Made by a program: the position numbers and the translations under genes. Shown here piece after piece: positions 50,124 to 55,119 of a stretch of 64,000 nt of DNA. Location: positions 372,001 to 436,000 of the forward strand of contig NZ_AP022596.1 in assembly GCF_010731895.1 (NCBI RefSeq). The letters run 5' to 3'. The notes beneath the pieces were generated by a model. It saw only the letters and a list, made by a program, of their open reading frames with translations. It ran no database searches and had not been told where the DNA came from. Origin of the DNA: Mycolicibacterium helvum. Lineage in GTDB: Bacteria > Actinomycetota > Actinomycetes > Mycobacteriales > Mycobacteriaceae. Positions within the stretch are counted from its first letter, which is position 1. The number at the start of each line of letters is the position of its first letter.

Positions 50124-51494
50124 CTACACCCCGGTCCCGTCGGCCGCGGTGTACGCCCGCCACCCACCGAATCGAGTGATCTCCTGCTGGCCCTCGACCA
50201 GCGCGGGCTCGCCGATCACGCCGAGCACGGTCGACCCGTCATCGAGGCGGACCTTCCCGATCGACAACCCGGGTGGCTCGGCGAGCAGGATACCGGCCAG
50301 GCCCGCAGCGGGCACCGCCCACACCTCGACCGCCACCGCGACCCCCGAGCCGTCGGTGACCCGGATCATCGCGGGGTGGTCATCGTTGATCGTCCACAGC
50401 CGGTACACCGGCTCAGTGGTGGCCTCCCGGACGAACGCGGCGCCCGCGGCGGCCATGTTCGGTGAGAGTTTCAGCCCGCGCATCAATGTGCCGTTGACCG
50501 CTAATAGCACTGCCTCGCTGTCATTTTCGTCGTCATGCACAGCTGCAACAGTAGCGCCGACGATTCGAGTTCCCGACGTGCCGGCCAGGATCGCCGGGAT
50601 CTCCTCGGCCGCCCCGATGACCCCGACGGCCCCGGGCGTCGCGGCCACGAAATCGGCGACGGCCTCCACTTTGGGTTCCATCGACCCCTTGCCGAATTGG
50701 CCGGAGGCGAGGTAGGCGCGGGCTTGCTCAACCGTGATCGTGTCGAGCCACTTCTGCGACGGCGTTCCGAATCCGACGGCCACTCGCGGCACACCGGTGG
50801 GGATCATCAGTAGATCTGCACCTAGTTCATGGGCCAGCAGGCCGGAGGCGATGTCCTTGTCGACGACGGCTTCCACGCCGACCACGGTGCCGTCCGGTTC
50901 GAGCGCCACCGGGATGCCGCCACCGCCCACCGCGACGACGATCACGCCGTCGTCGAGCAGCCGGCGGATCACCTCGGTCTCCAGGATCGTCGTCGGCCGG
51001 GGCGAGGCCACCGTGCGCCGCCAGCCCCGGCCGGCGTCCTCGGCTATCGTCCACCCCTGGCTGGCGGCCAGCGCCGTGGCTCTGGCCTCATCGAGGAAGG
51101 AGCCGACCGGCTTGGTCGGATTACCGAAGGCCGGATCGTCGCGGCTGACCACCGAGTGCGTCACCACCGCGACGACCGGCCGGGACAGGCCACGGCGGGC
51201 GAGTTCGTTACGCAGGGCTTTGACGAACATGTAGCCGATCGCGCCCTGGGTGTCAGCGACGGCGTAGTCGACCGGGACCGGATCAACCTCGTCCTTGGCG
51301 AGTTCAGAACGGCGCAGGATGAATCCGACCTGTGGCCCATTGCCATGGGAGACAACGAGTTTCCAGCCTTGTTCCACCATGTCGATGAGCGGCGCTACCG
51401 CGCGAGCGACCGTGTCGTACTGTTGCGGGATCGAGTCGTGATCGGCATCGGTGACCAAGGCGTTGCCGCCGAACGCGACGATGGCAGTGCTCAT
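50124..51494 (-). CDS. Carbamate kinase fused to an allophanate-hydrolase C-terminal-like domain
   Basis: 456 residues. Residues 1-313 are carbamate kinase (AIVAFGGNAL, SHGNGPQVG, AVGGGGIPVALE, VVDKDIASGLLA, FGKGSMEPKVEAVADF), which makes ATP from carbamoyl phosphate. Residues ~328-450 match the C-terminal domain of allophanate hydrolase (LAVNGTLMRGLKLSPNMAAA, EVWAVPAAGLAGILLAEPPG, ITRFGGWRAYTA), a domain linked in AtzF-type enzymes to handling the N-carboxy intermediate. No amidase domain is present. Last gene of the operon; the start overlaps the YlbE stop (ATGA). The fusion ties ATP formation to allophanate chemistry. Confidence 0.88.
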   Translation of the reverse strand: MSTAIVAFGGNALVTDADHDSIPQQYDTVARAVAPLIDMVEQGWKLVVSHGNGPQVGFILRRSELAKDEVDPVPVDYAVADTQGAIGYMFVKALRNELARRGLSRPVVAVVTHSVVSRDDPAFGNPTKPVGSFLDEARATALAASQGWTIAEDAGRGWRRTVASPRPTTILETEVIRRLLDDGVIVVAVGGGGIPVALEPDGTVVGVEAVVDKDIASGLLAHELGADLLMIPTGVPRVAVGFGTPSQKWLDTITVEQARAYLASGQFGKGSMEPKVEAVADFVAATPGAVGVIGAAEEIPAILAGTSGTRIVGATVAAVHDDENDSEAVLLAVNGTLMRGLKLSPNMAAAGAAFVREATTEPVYRLWTINDDHPAMIRVTDGSGVAVAVEVWAVPAAGLAGILLAEPPGLSIGKVRLDDGSTVLGVIGEPALVEGQQEITRFGGWRAYTAADGTGV

Positions 51495-52903
51495 TTGTCA
51501 GCTCCCGACGCCAGCGCGGCCAGCGCTTCGTTGAAACAGGCCATCGGCGCGGTGGTGATGCCAGCGCCGATCTGCCCGACGCCGGCCTGCCGGTGCGCGA
51601 TGCCGGTGTTGATGATCGGCAAGACACCGGAATCGACCACCAGGCGGGCGTCTATTCCGGCCGGCGTACCGCCGAAGTTCAACGGCGGCAACGTGAACGC
51701 CGGATTAGTGCCCAGCGTGATGGACAACATGCGACGGCTGTTGGCCGTCGCATCGGCCGGGGTGCCACCCACGAATTGGACGATCGCGGGTGAGGCGGCC
51801 ATCGCGAACCCGCCGAGCCCGTTGGTCTCGGTGATCGCCGAGTCGCCGAGGTCGGCGGCCGCGTCGTCGACCGAGTAGCCCGGGAAGTACAGCCCGTCAA
51901 CGGGATTGGCGGGAGCCTGAAACCACTGATCGCCGGTGCCGGACAGCTTGATCCCGAAGTTCACCCCGTTGCGGGCCATTACCGTGACCATGCTGCTGCC
52001 CGGCACGCCCGCCGCGGCGTCCGACATCGACTTGGAAGCGGCCATCGAGATGTTGAGGAAGAAGTGGTCATTACCGGCGACGAACTCCAACGCACGGCGC
52101 ACCGCGTCGGACGGCAGGTCGGAACCCAACAGCGACAACGTCAGCCGCTTGAACAACAACCCGGACGCAGCAGCATTGCGGTTGTGCAGCTCGTCGCCCA
52201 TATGCAGTGCCTGGGCCATCAGCGGTTTGAGATCGGGGTCGGTCAATCCGCGCACCGCGACCTGCATGGTGGCGAAGAAATCGCCACCCAGCCAGCGCAG
52301 CCGGTCGAGCACATCGGGCGAGTTGGCGCCGAACCGCAGCACCTTGCCCAGTCCCTCGTTGAGGTTGCAGAAGGCCCGGTTTCCCGCCGCGGTGTTCTCC
52401 ACCACCCACACCGGCATCGACGGGCTGATGATGCCCGCCATCGGCCCAACCGCGCTGTGCTCGTGGCAGGGTTCCAGCGCTATTTCCCCACTCTCGACGA
52501 GCCTCTCGGCGGCGTCGAGGTCGTGGGCCCACCCCTCGTAGAGGATCGCTCCGGCGATGGCGCCGCGCTGCGGTCCGCACATGTCGGGCCATGCGATCGG
52601 TGGTCCGGAATGCAGGATGCGGCGCTCGCCGGGGCCGAGGCCTGTGATCGCCTCGCCAGCGCGCACCAGATCGATCAGGCGTGGCTGCGCGCCCAGATAA
52701 CGATCGAAGGCGATCTGGTTGGCCGCCTCGATGCGCGGGTCTGAAACCAGCGTGGCCAGTGTCCAGCCCAGCGCGGGATCGGCGCCCGCGGGCGGCGCCC
52801 ACGTGACGTTGGTGGCCTGACCCCCGGCGGCGGTGACATTGGTCGCGAAGCCCTGCAGGCCGACGTTGACGACCTTGAGGTCCTGTTCGAAAAGCTTCTT
52901 CAC
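51491..52903 (-). CDS. YlbE/AllG-like DUF1116 protein, putative carbamoyltransferase subunit
   Basis: 470 residues from a GTG at 52903 with GGAGGA upstream; the much longer frame from 53041 overlaps fdrA. KLFEQDLKVVNVGLQGFATN, HSGPPIAWPDMCGPQRGAIA, RFGANSPDVLDRLRWLGGDF, HMGDELHNRNAAASGLLFKR and MARNGVNFGIKLSGTGDQWF belong to DUF1116. In enterobacteria YlbE (AllG) works with FdrA (AllF) and AllH as oxamate carbamoyltransferase, turning oxalurate and phosphate into carbamoyl phosphate and oxamate. No AllH (DUF2877) gene lies in the window. Overlaps fdrA and the kinase gene by 4 nt on each side. Confidence 0.9.
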   Translation of the reverse strand: MKKLFEQDLKVVNVGLQGFATNVTAAGGQATNVTWAPPAGADPALGWTLATLVSDPRIEAANQIAFDRYLGAQPRLIDLVRAGEAITGLGPGERRILHSGPPIAWPDMCGPQRGAIAGAILYEGWAHDLDAAERLVESGEIALEPCHEHSAVGPMAGIISPSMPVWVVENTAAGNRAFCNLNEGLGKVLRFGANSPDVLDRLRWLGGDFFATMQVAVRGLTDPDLKPLMAQALHMGDELHNRNAAASGLLFKRLTLSLLGSDLPSDAVRRALEFVAGNDHFFLNISMAASKSMSDAAAGVPGSSMVTVMARNGVNFGIKLSGTGDQWFQAPANPVDGLYFPGYSVDDAAADLGDSAITETNGLGGFAMAASPAIVQFVGGTPADATANSRRMLSITLGTNPAFTLPPLNFGGTPAGIDARLVVDSGVLPIINTGIAHRQAGVGQIGAGITTAPMACFNEALAALASGADK

Positions 52904-54456
52904 CGCTGTCCTCCGAGCGCGCCGATCAGGGTCGCCGACCACAGGGCCGCCTCCGCGTTGCTGGACGCGACCAGCACCCCGGCGGACTGCAGGCCGGCGA
53001 CCGCCGTGGCACGATCCTGCGGATCGAGGTCGGTGCCGCACACGTGGCCGATGAAGGCCACCGTTCTTCCGTCAGCACGGGCCGCGGCCCCAGCGGAGTC
53101 GATGATCGACATCAGTTCTGCCGTCGGATCGTCGGCCGAGCCGTAGCCGAGCACCACGTCGAACAGCACGACGGCTGTCGTCGGGTCGGCGATCTCGTCG
53201 CGGATCCGGGCGTCCTTACCCGACGGGTCGATCATCGGATGGGGTCGGCCCTGGGTGAATTCGTCGTCGCCCATGTCGATGATGGTGTGCTGCAGGCTGG
53301 TTCGGATCTCGGTCAGCGGGCTGTTACCCACCACCGGGGTGTTGGAAAAAGCGATGATGCCATGGGCCCGGTGCACCAGCTGCGCTTCGAAGCAGAATGT
53401 GCCGCCAGAGAAGATGCCCCGCACATACCGCTGGTCCGGGGCCATCGAGTCTGCGAGATCGGTAAGGGTGCGCCGCATCTCCGGTGAGATCGCGATATCG
53501 CCGGCGCTGGGCTGCTCGCCGCGGGCCAATTGCACAGCCATATCGGCGGCCTGGGCGAGATACGCCGCGCCGTAGACCCCGTCGCCAGTGATCGACTCCG
53601 GATCGGCGCCGAGGAAGATCACGACGACAGGTTTGGCGCTAGCCCCAGCTGCGGCAAGCACTTTCGCGGCCACCGCGGCCGAGGGCGGCTTGGACACCAG
53701 GACGATGACCGTAGTGGCCGGGTCATCGTCGAGGGCGGCCAGGCCGTGCAACATCGAGATGCCGCCGATCACGTCGGCGAGGTCGTGACCACCGGTGCCC
53801 AGCGCTTGCGACACCCCCGATCCGTTCTGGTGGATCCGGACGGTGACCTCTTGGGTGCCGGTGCCCGAAGCGCCGACCACCCCGATCGGCCCGCGCCGCA
53901 CGACGTTGGCGAACCCCAGCGGGATCCCATTGACGATCGAGGTCCCGCAGTCGGGGCCCATCACCATCAGGTCGGCTCCGCGGGCGTATTGCTTGAGCGC
54001 CAGTTCGGCTTCCGCGCTGACGTTGTCGCTGAACACCATCACGTCCAGGCCCAACCGCAGTGCCTTCATCGCCTCGGCGGCGGCATAGTCGCCGGGCACC
54101 GAGATCAAAGCGAGGTTGAGCGTCGGGTCTTTCGCGACGGCCATCTGAATGCTGGTGGTGGGCGCGGCGGCAGCCGGTTCACCGCTGTCGCCTGCCGCCG
54201 CCGACAGCAGCTTGTCGGCGATCGCCAGCGCCTCGTCGCAGGCTTCATCGGTGCCCGACACGGCGACGACGAGGTCGTTGGGCCGAACCTCGAAGGCACC
54301 GAGACCGGCCGCGACCAGGTTGTCGACATTGGTGGCCGAGGCCATCACCACCGACGCGGCCTGGATACCCGGTATCGACGTCACCCGCGCCGACACCGTC
54401 ATCAAGGACACCGAGTCCTTGTACAGGTTGGGATAGAAACGCGAACTGATTCCCAT
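52900..54456 (-). CDS. fdrA: FdrA-like (AllF) putative carbamoyltransferase subunit
   Basis: 518 residues. The N-terminus SSRFYPNLYKDSVSLMTVSA and the succinyl-CoA-synthetase-like middle (DLMVMGPDCGTSIVNGIPLG, GPIGVVGASGTGTQEVTVRI, GTGGHDLADVIGGISMLHGL) are characteristic of FdrA. A later VRGIFSGGTFCFEAQLVHRA and HPMIDPSGKDARIRDEIADP match the second CoA-ligase-like lobe. FdrA is part of the AllF-AllG-AllH oxamate carbamoyltransferase. It starts only 3 nt after the BiuH-like gene's stop, so both are co-translated. Substrate here is inferred from neighbours, not shown. Confidence 0.9.
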   Translation of the reverse strand: MGISSRFYPNLYKDSVSLMTVSARVTSIPGIQAASVVMASATNVDNLVAAGLGAFEVRPNDLVVAVSGTDEACDEALAIADKLLSAAAGDSGEPAAAAPTTSIQMAVAKDPTLNLALISVPGDYAAAEAMKALRLGLDVMVFSDNVSAEAELALKQYARGADLMVMGPDCGTSIVNGIPLGFANVVRRGPIGVVGASGTGTQEVTVRIHQNGSGVSQALGTGGHDLADVIGGISMLHGLAALDDDPATTVIVLVSKPPSAAVAAKVLAAAGASAKPVVVIFLGADPESITGDGVYGAAYLAQAADMAVQLARGEQPSAGDIAISPEMRRTLTDLADSMAPDQRYVRGIFSGGTFCFEAQLVHRAHGIIAFSNTPVVGNSPLTEIRTSLQHTIIDMGDDEFTQGRPHPMIDPSGKDARIRDEIADPTTAVVLFDVVLGYGSADDPTAELMSIIDSAGAAARADGRTVAFIGHVCGTDLDPQDRATAVAGLQSAGVLVASSNAEAALWSATLIGALGGQR

Positions 54457-54459
54457 GCG

Positions 54460-55119
54460 TCAGGACGTCGCGGCGATGAACTCGTCGGCGTCGGACACCC
54501 AGCCGAAGATCCCGCCTTGGGCCTTGATCATCTCCAATGCCACCCGCTGGAATTCCGGAAAGTACGACGCCACACAGTCACTGAGCACCAGACATTCATA
54601 GCCCCTGTCGTTTGCCTCGCGCACCGTGGTGTGCACGCAGACCTCCGTCGTCACCCCGCAGACCACCAGCGTCTTGATGCCACGGTCGGACAAGATCTGA
54701 CTCAGGTCGGTGGCATGGAAGCTGCCCTTACCCGGCTTGTCGATCACGGGCTCGCCGTCGATGGGATACAGCTGGTCGATGATGTCGTGGCCCTTCTCGC
54801 CGCGCACCAGGATGCGGCCCATCGGACCGGCCTCGCCGATGAACGTCTTGCCGCCACGGTGCAACTTCGCCGGCGGACAGTCGGTCAGATCGGGACGGTG
54901 CCCCTCCCTGGTATGGATGACCAGCATGCCGATCTCACGGGCCTTGGCCAGCACCCGCCCGATCGGTTCCACCGCGGCGAGCAGCAACGAGGTGTCATTA
55001 CCGAGAGCCTCGCCGAAGCCGCCGGGCAACACGAAGTCACGCTGCATATCGATGATCACCAGCGCGGTGCTCGCGACGTCGAAGTCCAACGGGAAGGGCT
55101 CCGCATTGATCGTGGCCAT
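54460..55119 (-). CDS. Biuret-hydrolase-like cysteine amidohydrolase (isochorismatase superfamily)
   Basis: 219 residues from the ATG at 55119 with AGGAGGACC upstream. The triad is Asp24 (VIIDMQRDF), Lys128 (IDKPGKGSF) and Cys161 ([11 protein letters not shown]). [41 protein letters not shown] and [10 protein letters not shown] follow the sequence of biuret amidohydrolases (BiuH) closely, including a Gln after the Cys. RutB and N-carbamoylsarcosine amidases share the fold, so the substrate is not certain. First gene of the operon with fdrA, ylbE and the kinase fusion. A biuret-type substrate would give allophanate and ammonia. Confidence 0.8.

Follow-up and report, generated by a model that had tools for sequence, protein, structure and literature searches.

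The stretch of DNA analysed here, called the window, comprises 64,000 nucleotides (positions 372001-436000) of the 6.40 Mb one-contig genome of Mycolicibacterium helvum, and it contains four minus-strand genes at window positions 50124-55119. The first encodes a 219-residue hydrolase of the isochorismatase-like cysteine type (54460-55119; Pfam Isochorismatase, 1.4e-44), and is followed by genes for AllF (FdrA; 52900-54456; 518 residues; Ligase_CoA, 4.1e-30), AllG (YlbE, DUF1116; 51491-52903; 470 residues; PF06545, 3.3e-90) and a 456-residue fused protein (50124-51494) with an N-terminal carbamate kinase domain (50559-51494; AA_kinase, 4.1e-22) and a C-terminal AH_C domain (50148-50507; AH_C, 1.1e-37). 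The hydrolase and AllF genes are 3 bases apart, AllG, starting at GTG, overlaps the end of AllF by 4 bases, and the kinase-AH_C gene overlaps AllG by 4 bases; the four genes are thus packed like one translation-coupled operon. A preliminary description of this DNA had listed four overlapping or nearly touching genes here, and all of its open reading frames are present; the Pfam matches also bear out its naming of FdrA, YlbE and a carbamate kinase joined to AH_C. We give an even chance to the proposal that these genes, as an operon, serve the catabolism of triuret, or of a very close urea-chain compound, by a phosphorolytic and energy-conserving route. We infer each reaction of this model, while gene content, the fusion, a residue signature, genome-wide absences and gene neighbourhoods were observed.

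Type of the hydrolase

The hydrolase had been called BiuH-like, an identity that is rejected here since score, residues and tree all stand against it. The protein scores 277 bits with the BiuH model NF050097, under the cut-off of 370, and among solved structures it is nearest to TrtA (278 bits), followed by the BiuH proteins of Rhodococcus (248) and Rhizobium (231). Alignment to solved TrtA reveals that all of the catalytic Asp-Lys-Cys residues and the substrate-binding Glu, Lys and Gln are present. TrtA and BiuH hold their substrates with the same residues, and the specificity of each is probably determined by second-shell residues that surround the key glutamine (PMC7948467; BiuH substrate contacts are also given in PMC5806882). 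At these specificity positions, which were taken from PMC7948467, the window hydrolase has F35, N41, E160 and I205, so that all four second-shell residues are those of the TrtA set (FNEI) and not of the BiuH set (YYDV).

A search with six AH_C sequences of the subtype described below provided the best 80 of 184 confirmed database loci (labelled individually by L-numbers, such as L018 or L040), which with an operon of Escherichia coli CFT073 make 81. The resulting hydrolase alignment has 96 rows, including three reference segments and counting the E. coli protein twice; 66 rows have FNEI, among them the window and E. coli operon enzymes, 27 have YYDV, 3 are incomplete and none is mixed. The full catalytic and binding set is kept in 91 of the 96 rows, and the only complete rows that depart from it are one mutant reference chain and L040 (L040:4702-5352), in which E72 is replaced by K and Q202 by L (TrtA numbering). 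The L040 protein, a second copy in a Rhodobacterales bin whose other copy is L028, is a candidate for a diverged or altered-substrate enzyme.

A tree that left out 18 loci (thinned close relatives and rows shorter than 170 residues) splits into a BiuH clade (95/85) and an opposite side that gathers the FNEI rows (94/95), with RutB as a far outgroup. Characterised TrtA falls in a 100/99 subclade with proteins of Rokubacteria, Nitrospira, Verrucomicrobia and cyanobacteria, and this subclade groups (98/97) with hydrolases from AllFG operons of Phytobacter, Atlantibacter and others. Because of its TrtA-type score, residues and side of the tree, the likely substrate of the window hydrolase is triuret rather than biuret, with a near relative of triuret also possible. 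A phage origin for this protein was considered and rejected, as phage matches are weak (three records, all below 60% identity).

AllF, AllG and the kinase-AH_C protein

The window AllF scores above the cut-off of PRK06091 (457 bits against 433) and is 52% identical to AllF of the CFT073 operon and 39% to that of E. coli K-12; for AllG, which has a solved relative in 3clq, the corresponding identities are 66.5% and 46%. From their membership of the oxamate-carbamoyltransferase family, AllF and AllG are predicted to phosphorolyse a urea-chain substrate. A second AllG in the genome (6068734-6069942; L002) is 44% identical and is flanked by two short-chain-dehydrogenase-like open reading frames (read from the sequence), and the 3.6 kb read around it shows no AllF; on these grounds it was rejected as a member of the pathway. 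AllG relatives of about 35-45% identity are present in a number of mycobacteria.

The preliminary description saw neither AllH nor an allophanate hydrolase amidase near these genes, and both absences hold genome-wide. A hidden or diverged AllH was found neither with PF11392, which detects none in the whole genome and was positive for its E. coli control, nor with a four-sequence AllH alignment, which gave nothing at E<=10 in a search run without a positive control. No protein exceeds the cut-off for AtzF (511.05 bits), the best amidase reaching 176.6, so an AtzF-like amidase elsewhere in the genome was rejected, and the hallmark of AtzF, an amidase-signature domain joined to AH_C, occurs neither in this protein nor in the genome. 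The kinase-fused domain is the single AH_C copy of the genome.

Surveys for AllH, AtzF and urease covered the host genomes of 50 of the 80 database loci (49 genomes for urease and AtzF, since L028 and L040 share one). AllH is present in 23 of the 50 genomes searched: in 23 of the 25 outside the mycobacteria that have AllFG at the locus (the exceptions, L024 and L029, are both metagenome bins), in none of 14 whose locus lacks AllFG, and in none of 11 other mycobacterial genomes. The mycobacterial lineage has probably lost AllH, because its rows in an AllG tree nest in a group (98/99) whose other members include Rhodobacterales and Burkholderiales that have AllH.

The kinase domain scores over the cut-off of PRK12352 (334.7 bits against 266) and slightly under that of the equivalog TIGR00746 (343.5 against 358.25), and is predicted to form ATP from carbamoyl phosphate and ADP. 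Among solved chains the AH_C domain is closest to the free-standing AH_C protein 5c5z (153 bits), with AtzF-type 4gyr at 72 bits. In a by-eye comparison of alignments this 'NGTLM' subtype has NGTL where two AtzF-type chains carry GAHL, which hints at a changed substrate. AH_C here is a distinct subtype that is predicted to decarboxylate an N-carboxyurea, either allophanate or carboxybiuret.

The fused domain is present as first described, yet it had been given no role, whereas it looks like a working part of the pathway because it is fused to the kinase (23 of 81 loci), fused to the hydrolase (1 of 81) or free-standing (as in E. coli) in its relatives. Among the 120 listed of 449 database architecture matches, 117 are kinase plus AH_C, and the other three are hydrolase plus AH_C, AllG plus AH_C (a frame-shifted reading) and AH_C alone. 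One locus, from a Roseiarcus bin (L023:9305-10396), joins AH_C to a TrtA-type hydrolase in a single polypeptide and has no AllFG in its 20 kb, which suggests that the product of the hydrolase can be a direct substrate of AH_C. Among the loci that have a TrtA or BiuH type but no AllFG, a hydrolase lies within 2.5 kb of AH_C in 25 of 28; since AH_C thus accompanies TrtA and BiuH types even without AllFG, its substrate probably comes from these hydrolases and is probably carboxybiuret or allophanate.

Other neighbours of AH_C were also seen. In Parasutterella and Candidatus Aphodousia (L064:8656-10378 and L085:8658-10375) it follows an M20-like amidohydrolase, read from the sequence, at loci with no TrtA or BiuH type and no AllFG, where it may serve another use. 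A ChrR-type cupin (PF12973, scanned in this locus only) stands just before AH_C at L047:9569-9985, and small genes related to it precede AH_C in several Verrucomicrobia loci.

Relatives, neighbourhoods and links to urea

A search for the gene set elsewhere found AllF or AllG in 45 of the 81 AH_C loci. Hydrolase, AllF, AllG and AH_C are all present in 42 stretches (the window, CFT073 and 40 database loci) and lie on one strand in 41 of them, L053 being the exception; because of this arrangement, the four-gene association is not chance. The nearest relatives of the window locus are in Mycobacterium and Mycolicibacterium.

In CFT073 the order is hydrolase, AllH, AllF, AllG, kinase, AH_C, a cytosine permease family gene and a LysR gene. 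The aligned stretch of 5c5z agrees with the AH_C gene of this operon, and we take it to be c4763 of E. coli. Between this operon and the window the hydrolases are 72.6% and the AH_C domains 61.7% identical. The same genome also has allFGHK beside allantoin genes; because CFT073 already holds this known oxalurate set, the c4763 operon probably does something other than allFGHK. Of 5426 complete E. coli genomes, 1547 contain a match to the 7.2 kb operon stretch, Nissle 1917 among them; 1542 match over at least 80% of its length, and 127 operon places are on plasmids. A conjugative IncF plasmid (L098; NZ_CP134087.1, 22485-46871) has the whole operon with transporter and regulator.

Across bacteria the loci have three layouts. 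The first, found in mycobacteria, enterobacteria, Burkholderiales, Rhodobacterales and others, consists of the hydrolase, often AllH, then AllF, AllG, kinase and AH_C, although the kinase was not seen in L067, L068 and L076. The second, in Nitrospira, has AllF-AllG-kinase, a Bmp/ABC transporter set, a BiuH type, a TrtA type and AH_C. The third, mainly in Verrucomicrobia and cyanobacteria, has a TrtA and/or BiuH type with AH_C and no AllFG in the stretch. In total 15 of the 81 loci lack a complete hydrolase row (L018, L024, L026, L029, L038, L052, L054, L061, L062, L064, L069, L080, L082, L085 and L086); rows are partial for L080 and L082, and the L038 hydrolase reading frame is present but was missed by the selection of reading frames.

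A readable hydrolase is available for 40 of the 45 AllFG loci, and all 40 have FNEI; a YYDV hydrolase occurs in addition in 7 of the 40, all Nitrospira. The 36 loci without AllFG comprise 8 with FNEI only, 3 with YYDV only, 15 with both and 10 with no complete row (2 partial, 8 none). Outside Nitrospira the BiuH type occurs in 0 of 33 AllFG loci compared with 14 of 19 AH_C loci without AllFG (Fisher p 7e-9, not corrected for ancestry), and because of this distribution AllFG and the kinase look like a stand-in for BiuH there. Within Nitrospira it occurs in 7 of 7 AllFG loci and 4 of 7 others.

Several neighbourhoods are linked to urea. In L019 (a mycobacterium), L024, L026, L028 and L056, the kinase-AH_C gene is directly followed by a gene for a PF03253 urea transporter. 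UreG adjoins AH_C in L041, L048 and L049 and is 8 kb from it in L081, and L062 has a stretch of urease genes that stops 3 kb short of AH_C (UreG by scan; UreC by reading plus a fitting genome match). A clear urease (E<1e-30) is encoded by 35 of the 49 host genomes surveyed (38 at E<=0.001), and AtzF exceeds its cut-off in 7, all of them among the 14 without clear urease. M. helvum itself encodes a urease, with one alpha subunit. Biuret forms by decay of carboxybiuret, and urea by decay of allophanate (PMC6219798). These urea-linked genes fit a pathway ending in urea, without proving it.

A protein of about 530 residues, with about 10-14 hydrophobic segments in full-length rows, is encoded near the TrtA-type hydrolase or AH_C in 17 AH_C loci (for example, L060:10399-11994, L047:7890-9494 and L074:6984-8567). 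Two members gave no Pfam match (E<=10), and that of L060 had no NCBIfam match and no solved relative; the protein is a candidate for an unnamed permease family for triuret or urea.

Within the genus, AllG at least 83% identical to that of the window was found in 22 of 297 sampled genomes, its own included. Prevalence of the operon was measured by AllG identity since an AH_C family search, matched by 147 of 201 genomes, is not an operon count, many among the matches listed being in AtzF-length frames. The proteins scanned on either side of the four genes look unrelated to them; downstream these are a GGDEF and a nitroreductase-family protein, upstream a hemerythrin protein and a large regulator of BTAD type.

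A proposed route, its alternatives and known systems

In the proposed route the hydrolase would strip a terminal NH3 from triuret to give carboxybiuret, which TrtA is known to produce (PMC7948467). AllF-AllG, without AllH, would then convert carboxybiuret and phosphate to carbamoyl phosphate and allophanate; carboxybiuret is proposed as their substrate because it is shaped like oxalurate, which E. coli AllFGH interconverts with oxamate and carbamoyl phosphate (PMC11326118). From carbamoyl phosphate the kinase domain would yield ATP, NH3 and CO2, and AH_C would decarboxylate allophanate to urea and CO2, so in this order the fused protein would use both products of the preceding step and pull the reaction forward. 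Alternatively, AH_C could act first, releasing CO2 from carboxybiuret, and AllF-AllG would use the resulting biuret and phosphate to form carbamoyl phosphate and urea. The urea could be passed to urease, left or exported. Triuret arises from urate oxidised by peroxynitrite (PMC5703782), and is also found in urea fertiliser and human urine (PMC7948467).

Several observations weigh against this route. To our knowledge, no activity has been measured for any of these proteins. The decarboxylase chemistry of AH_C is known for N-carboxycarbamate, not for allophanate or carboxybiuret, and the hydrolase is absent from 8 of 36 AH_C loci without AllFG (one of them, L018, a short contig with a kinase fusion), so that AH_C may have other uses. 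Only the action of AllFGH on oxalurate is characterised, and use of urea chains by AllFG is an analogy. The window and E. coli operon hydrolases are in subclades neighbouring that of characterised TrtA and outside it, the TrtA row itself is on a long branch that drew a program warning and is unsurely placed, and the FNEI enzyme of L040 has lost two substrate-binding residues. The idea of a stand-in for BiuH is opposed by the BiuH type in all seven Nitrospira AllFG loci, and its exclusion from AllFG loci elsewhere is confounded by ancestry. As for urea, UreG was seen in none of the 45 AllFG loci and a urea transporter in just 5, 7 of 49 host genomes (several of them metagenome bins) have neither urease nor AtzF, and these two may exclude each other for other reasons. 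AllH, which this genome lacks, is important in E. coli, where AllFG without it restored 7% of the oxamate level (PMC11326118). Finally, PMC7558591 states that the 2015 crystal paper on c4763, which it cites, assigns this protein a function in the breakdown of urea.

The preliminary description had the hydrolase form allophanate (from biuret, or from triuret through a bifunctional enzyme), AllF-AllG split it to carbamoyl phosphate and carbamate, and the kinase make ATP. Its central idea, ATP-yielding phosphorolysis of a urea-like chain by AllF-AllG and kinase, is retained, but the version with allophanate as the substrate of AllF-AllG is now unlikely. A bifunctional biuret/triuret BiuH does exist in Rhodococcus (PMC7948467), the seven Nitrospira loci that combine BiuH type, TrtA type, AllFG and kinase have no AtzF recognised in them, and AtzF is over its cut-off in none of eight Nitrospira/Nitrospiraceae genomes, as in M. 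helvum. However, the residues of the window enzyme are of TrtA type, and outside Nitrospira none of the 33 AllFG loci that offer a readable hydrolase has a BiuH type. The BiuH model gives the operon enzyme 276.6 bits and the genome's next-best hydrolase 97.7; with no second hydrolase of BiuH or TrtA grade, conversion of biuret to allophanate is left without an obvious catalyst unless the operon enzyme is bifunctional. Allophanate as the AllF-AllG substrate also leaves no role for AH_C, the urea transporters or the urease neighbours.

To a true oxalurate pathway we assign the same low likelihood. Here the hydrolase would yield oxalurate from its amide or a similar compound, AllF-AllG would be an ordinary oxamate carbamoyltransferase, and oxamate would be waste. 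AllF and AllG do belong to the families of the oxalurate enzyme, and allFGHK beside biuH/trtA in nitrifiers has been taken as a separate oxalurate pathway (PMC12625717). Against it, allFGHK is already present in CFT073 alongside the allantoin genes, and AllG of its c4763 operon resembles the mycobacterial protein (66.5%) more than the K-12 AllG (48.5%) that corresponds to its own paralogue. AllH was not found in the M. helvum genome, and AH_C would have no role, though it also lies near TrtA and BiuH types where AllFG is absent.

Improbable, in our view, is a scheme in which AllF-AllG release NH3 from allophanate to form N-carboxycarbamoyl phosphate, the kinase uses this to make ATP and N-carboxycarbamate, and the fused AH_C decarboxylates the latter as in AtzF. 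It accounts for the fusion and keeps the AtzF reaction of AH_C, but demands a new reaction of both AllFG and carbamate kinase, and AH_C is also found without either and has NGTL, not the GAHL of two AtzF-type chains. Pyrimidine-type ureide catabolism with a RutB-like hydrolase, as suggested for the E. coli copy in PMC12928451, where the region is described as possibly for pyrimidine use, is very improbable: a cytosine-permease-family transporter is downstream in E. coli and the hydrolase is distantly RutB-like (115 bits with the profile model), but RutB is a far outgroup (106 bits against its solved chain, 278 for TrtA) and the active-site set of TrtA is complete.

Beyond the operon itself, it is a serious possibility, though short of an even chance, that AllFG(H) enzymes come in a second, widespread kind that acts as a carboxybiuret (or biuret) carbamoyltransferase and is partnered by a new allophanate/carboxybiuret decarboxylase of AH_C type, triuret thus being degraded with a gain of ATP and not by plain hydrolysis. 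This proposal offers a specific function for an operon without a known proven role that has matches in 1547 of the 5426 complete E. coli genomes, and covers its relatives in a minority of mycobacteria, in Nitrospira and in other bacteria. If true, it would supply the missing function of the c4763 operon, one suited to triuret from peroxynitrite-oxidised urate, and crystallised 5c5z would become a decarboxylase. Triuret breakdown could then conserve energy, the AllFGH family would gain a second class of substrate, and AllH would be dispensable in one lineage, the mycobacterial version running without it and with kinase and decarboxylase in one protein. Published oxalurate or pyrimidine readings of such genes would change. 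In the literature searched, a single paper, PMC12625717, mentions carbamate kinase together with triuret, and it alone pairs allophanate with DUF1116; the passages covered described no phosphorolytic triuret route, TrtA type of the E. coli hydrolase, mycobacterial loss of AllH or urea links.

The proposed route has parallels in several known systems. Like E. coli allFGHK (PMC11326118), the window has AllF, AllG and carbamate kinase in one operon that is expected to yield carbamoyl phosphate and ATP, but no AllH was found, a TrtA-type hydrolase and AH_C replace the allantoin genes, and AllG is only 46% identical. Herbaspirillum TrtA (PMC7948467) has the same catalytic and specificity residues and is the best solved-structure match of the hydrolase, yet belongs to a separate TrtA-side subclade and works with BiuH and AtzF, neither of which was found in this genome. 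With AtzF and urea amidolyase the fused protein shares the AH_C family and a GGW-type C-terminal end, and it differs in having no amidase domain, a fusion to the kinase and NGTLM for GAHL. The c4763 operon of E. coli (PDB 5c5z) has the same enzyme set, with AH_C free-standing, AllH present and a transporter and regulator of its own. Lastly, the Nitrospira loci analysed here also bring AllF, AllG, kinase, TrtA type and AH_C together and add a BiuH type and a Bmp/ABC transporter set; in comammox Nitrospira contigs, whose 'atzF' might be this free-standing AH_C, the side-by-side biuH, trtA, 'atzF' and allFGHK have been read as two separate pathways (PMC12625717).

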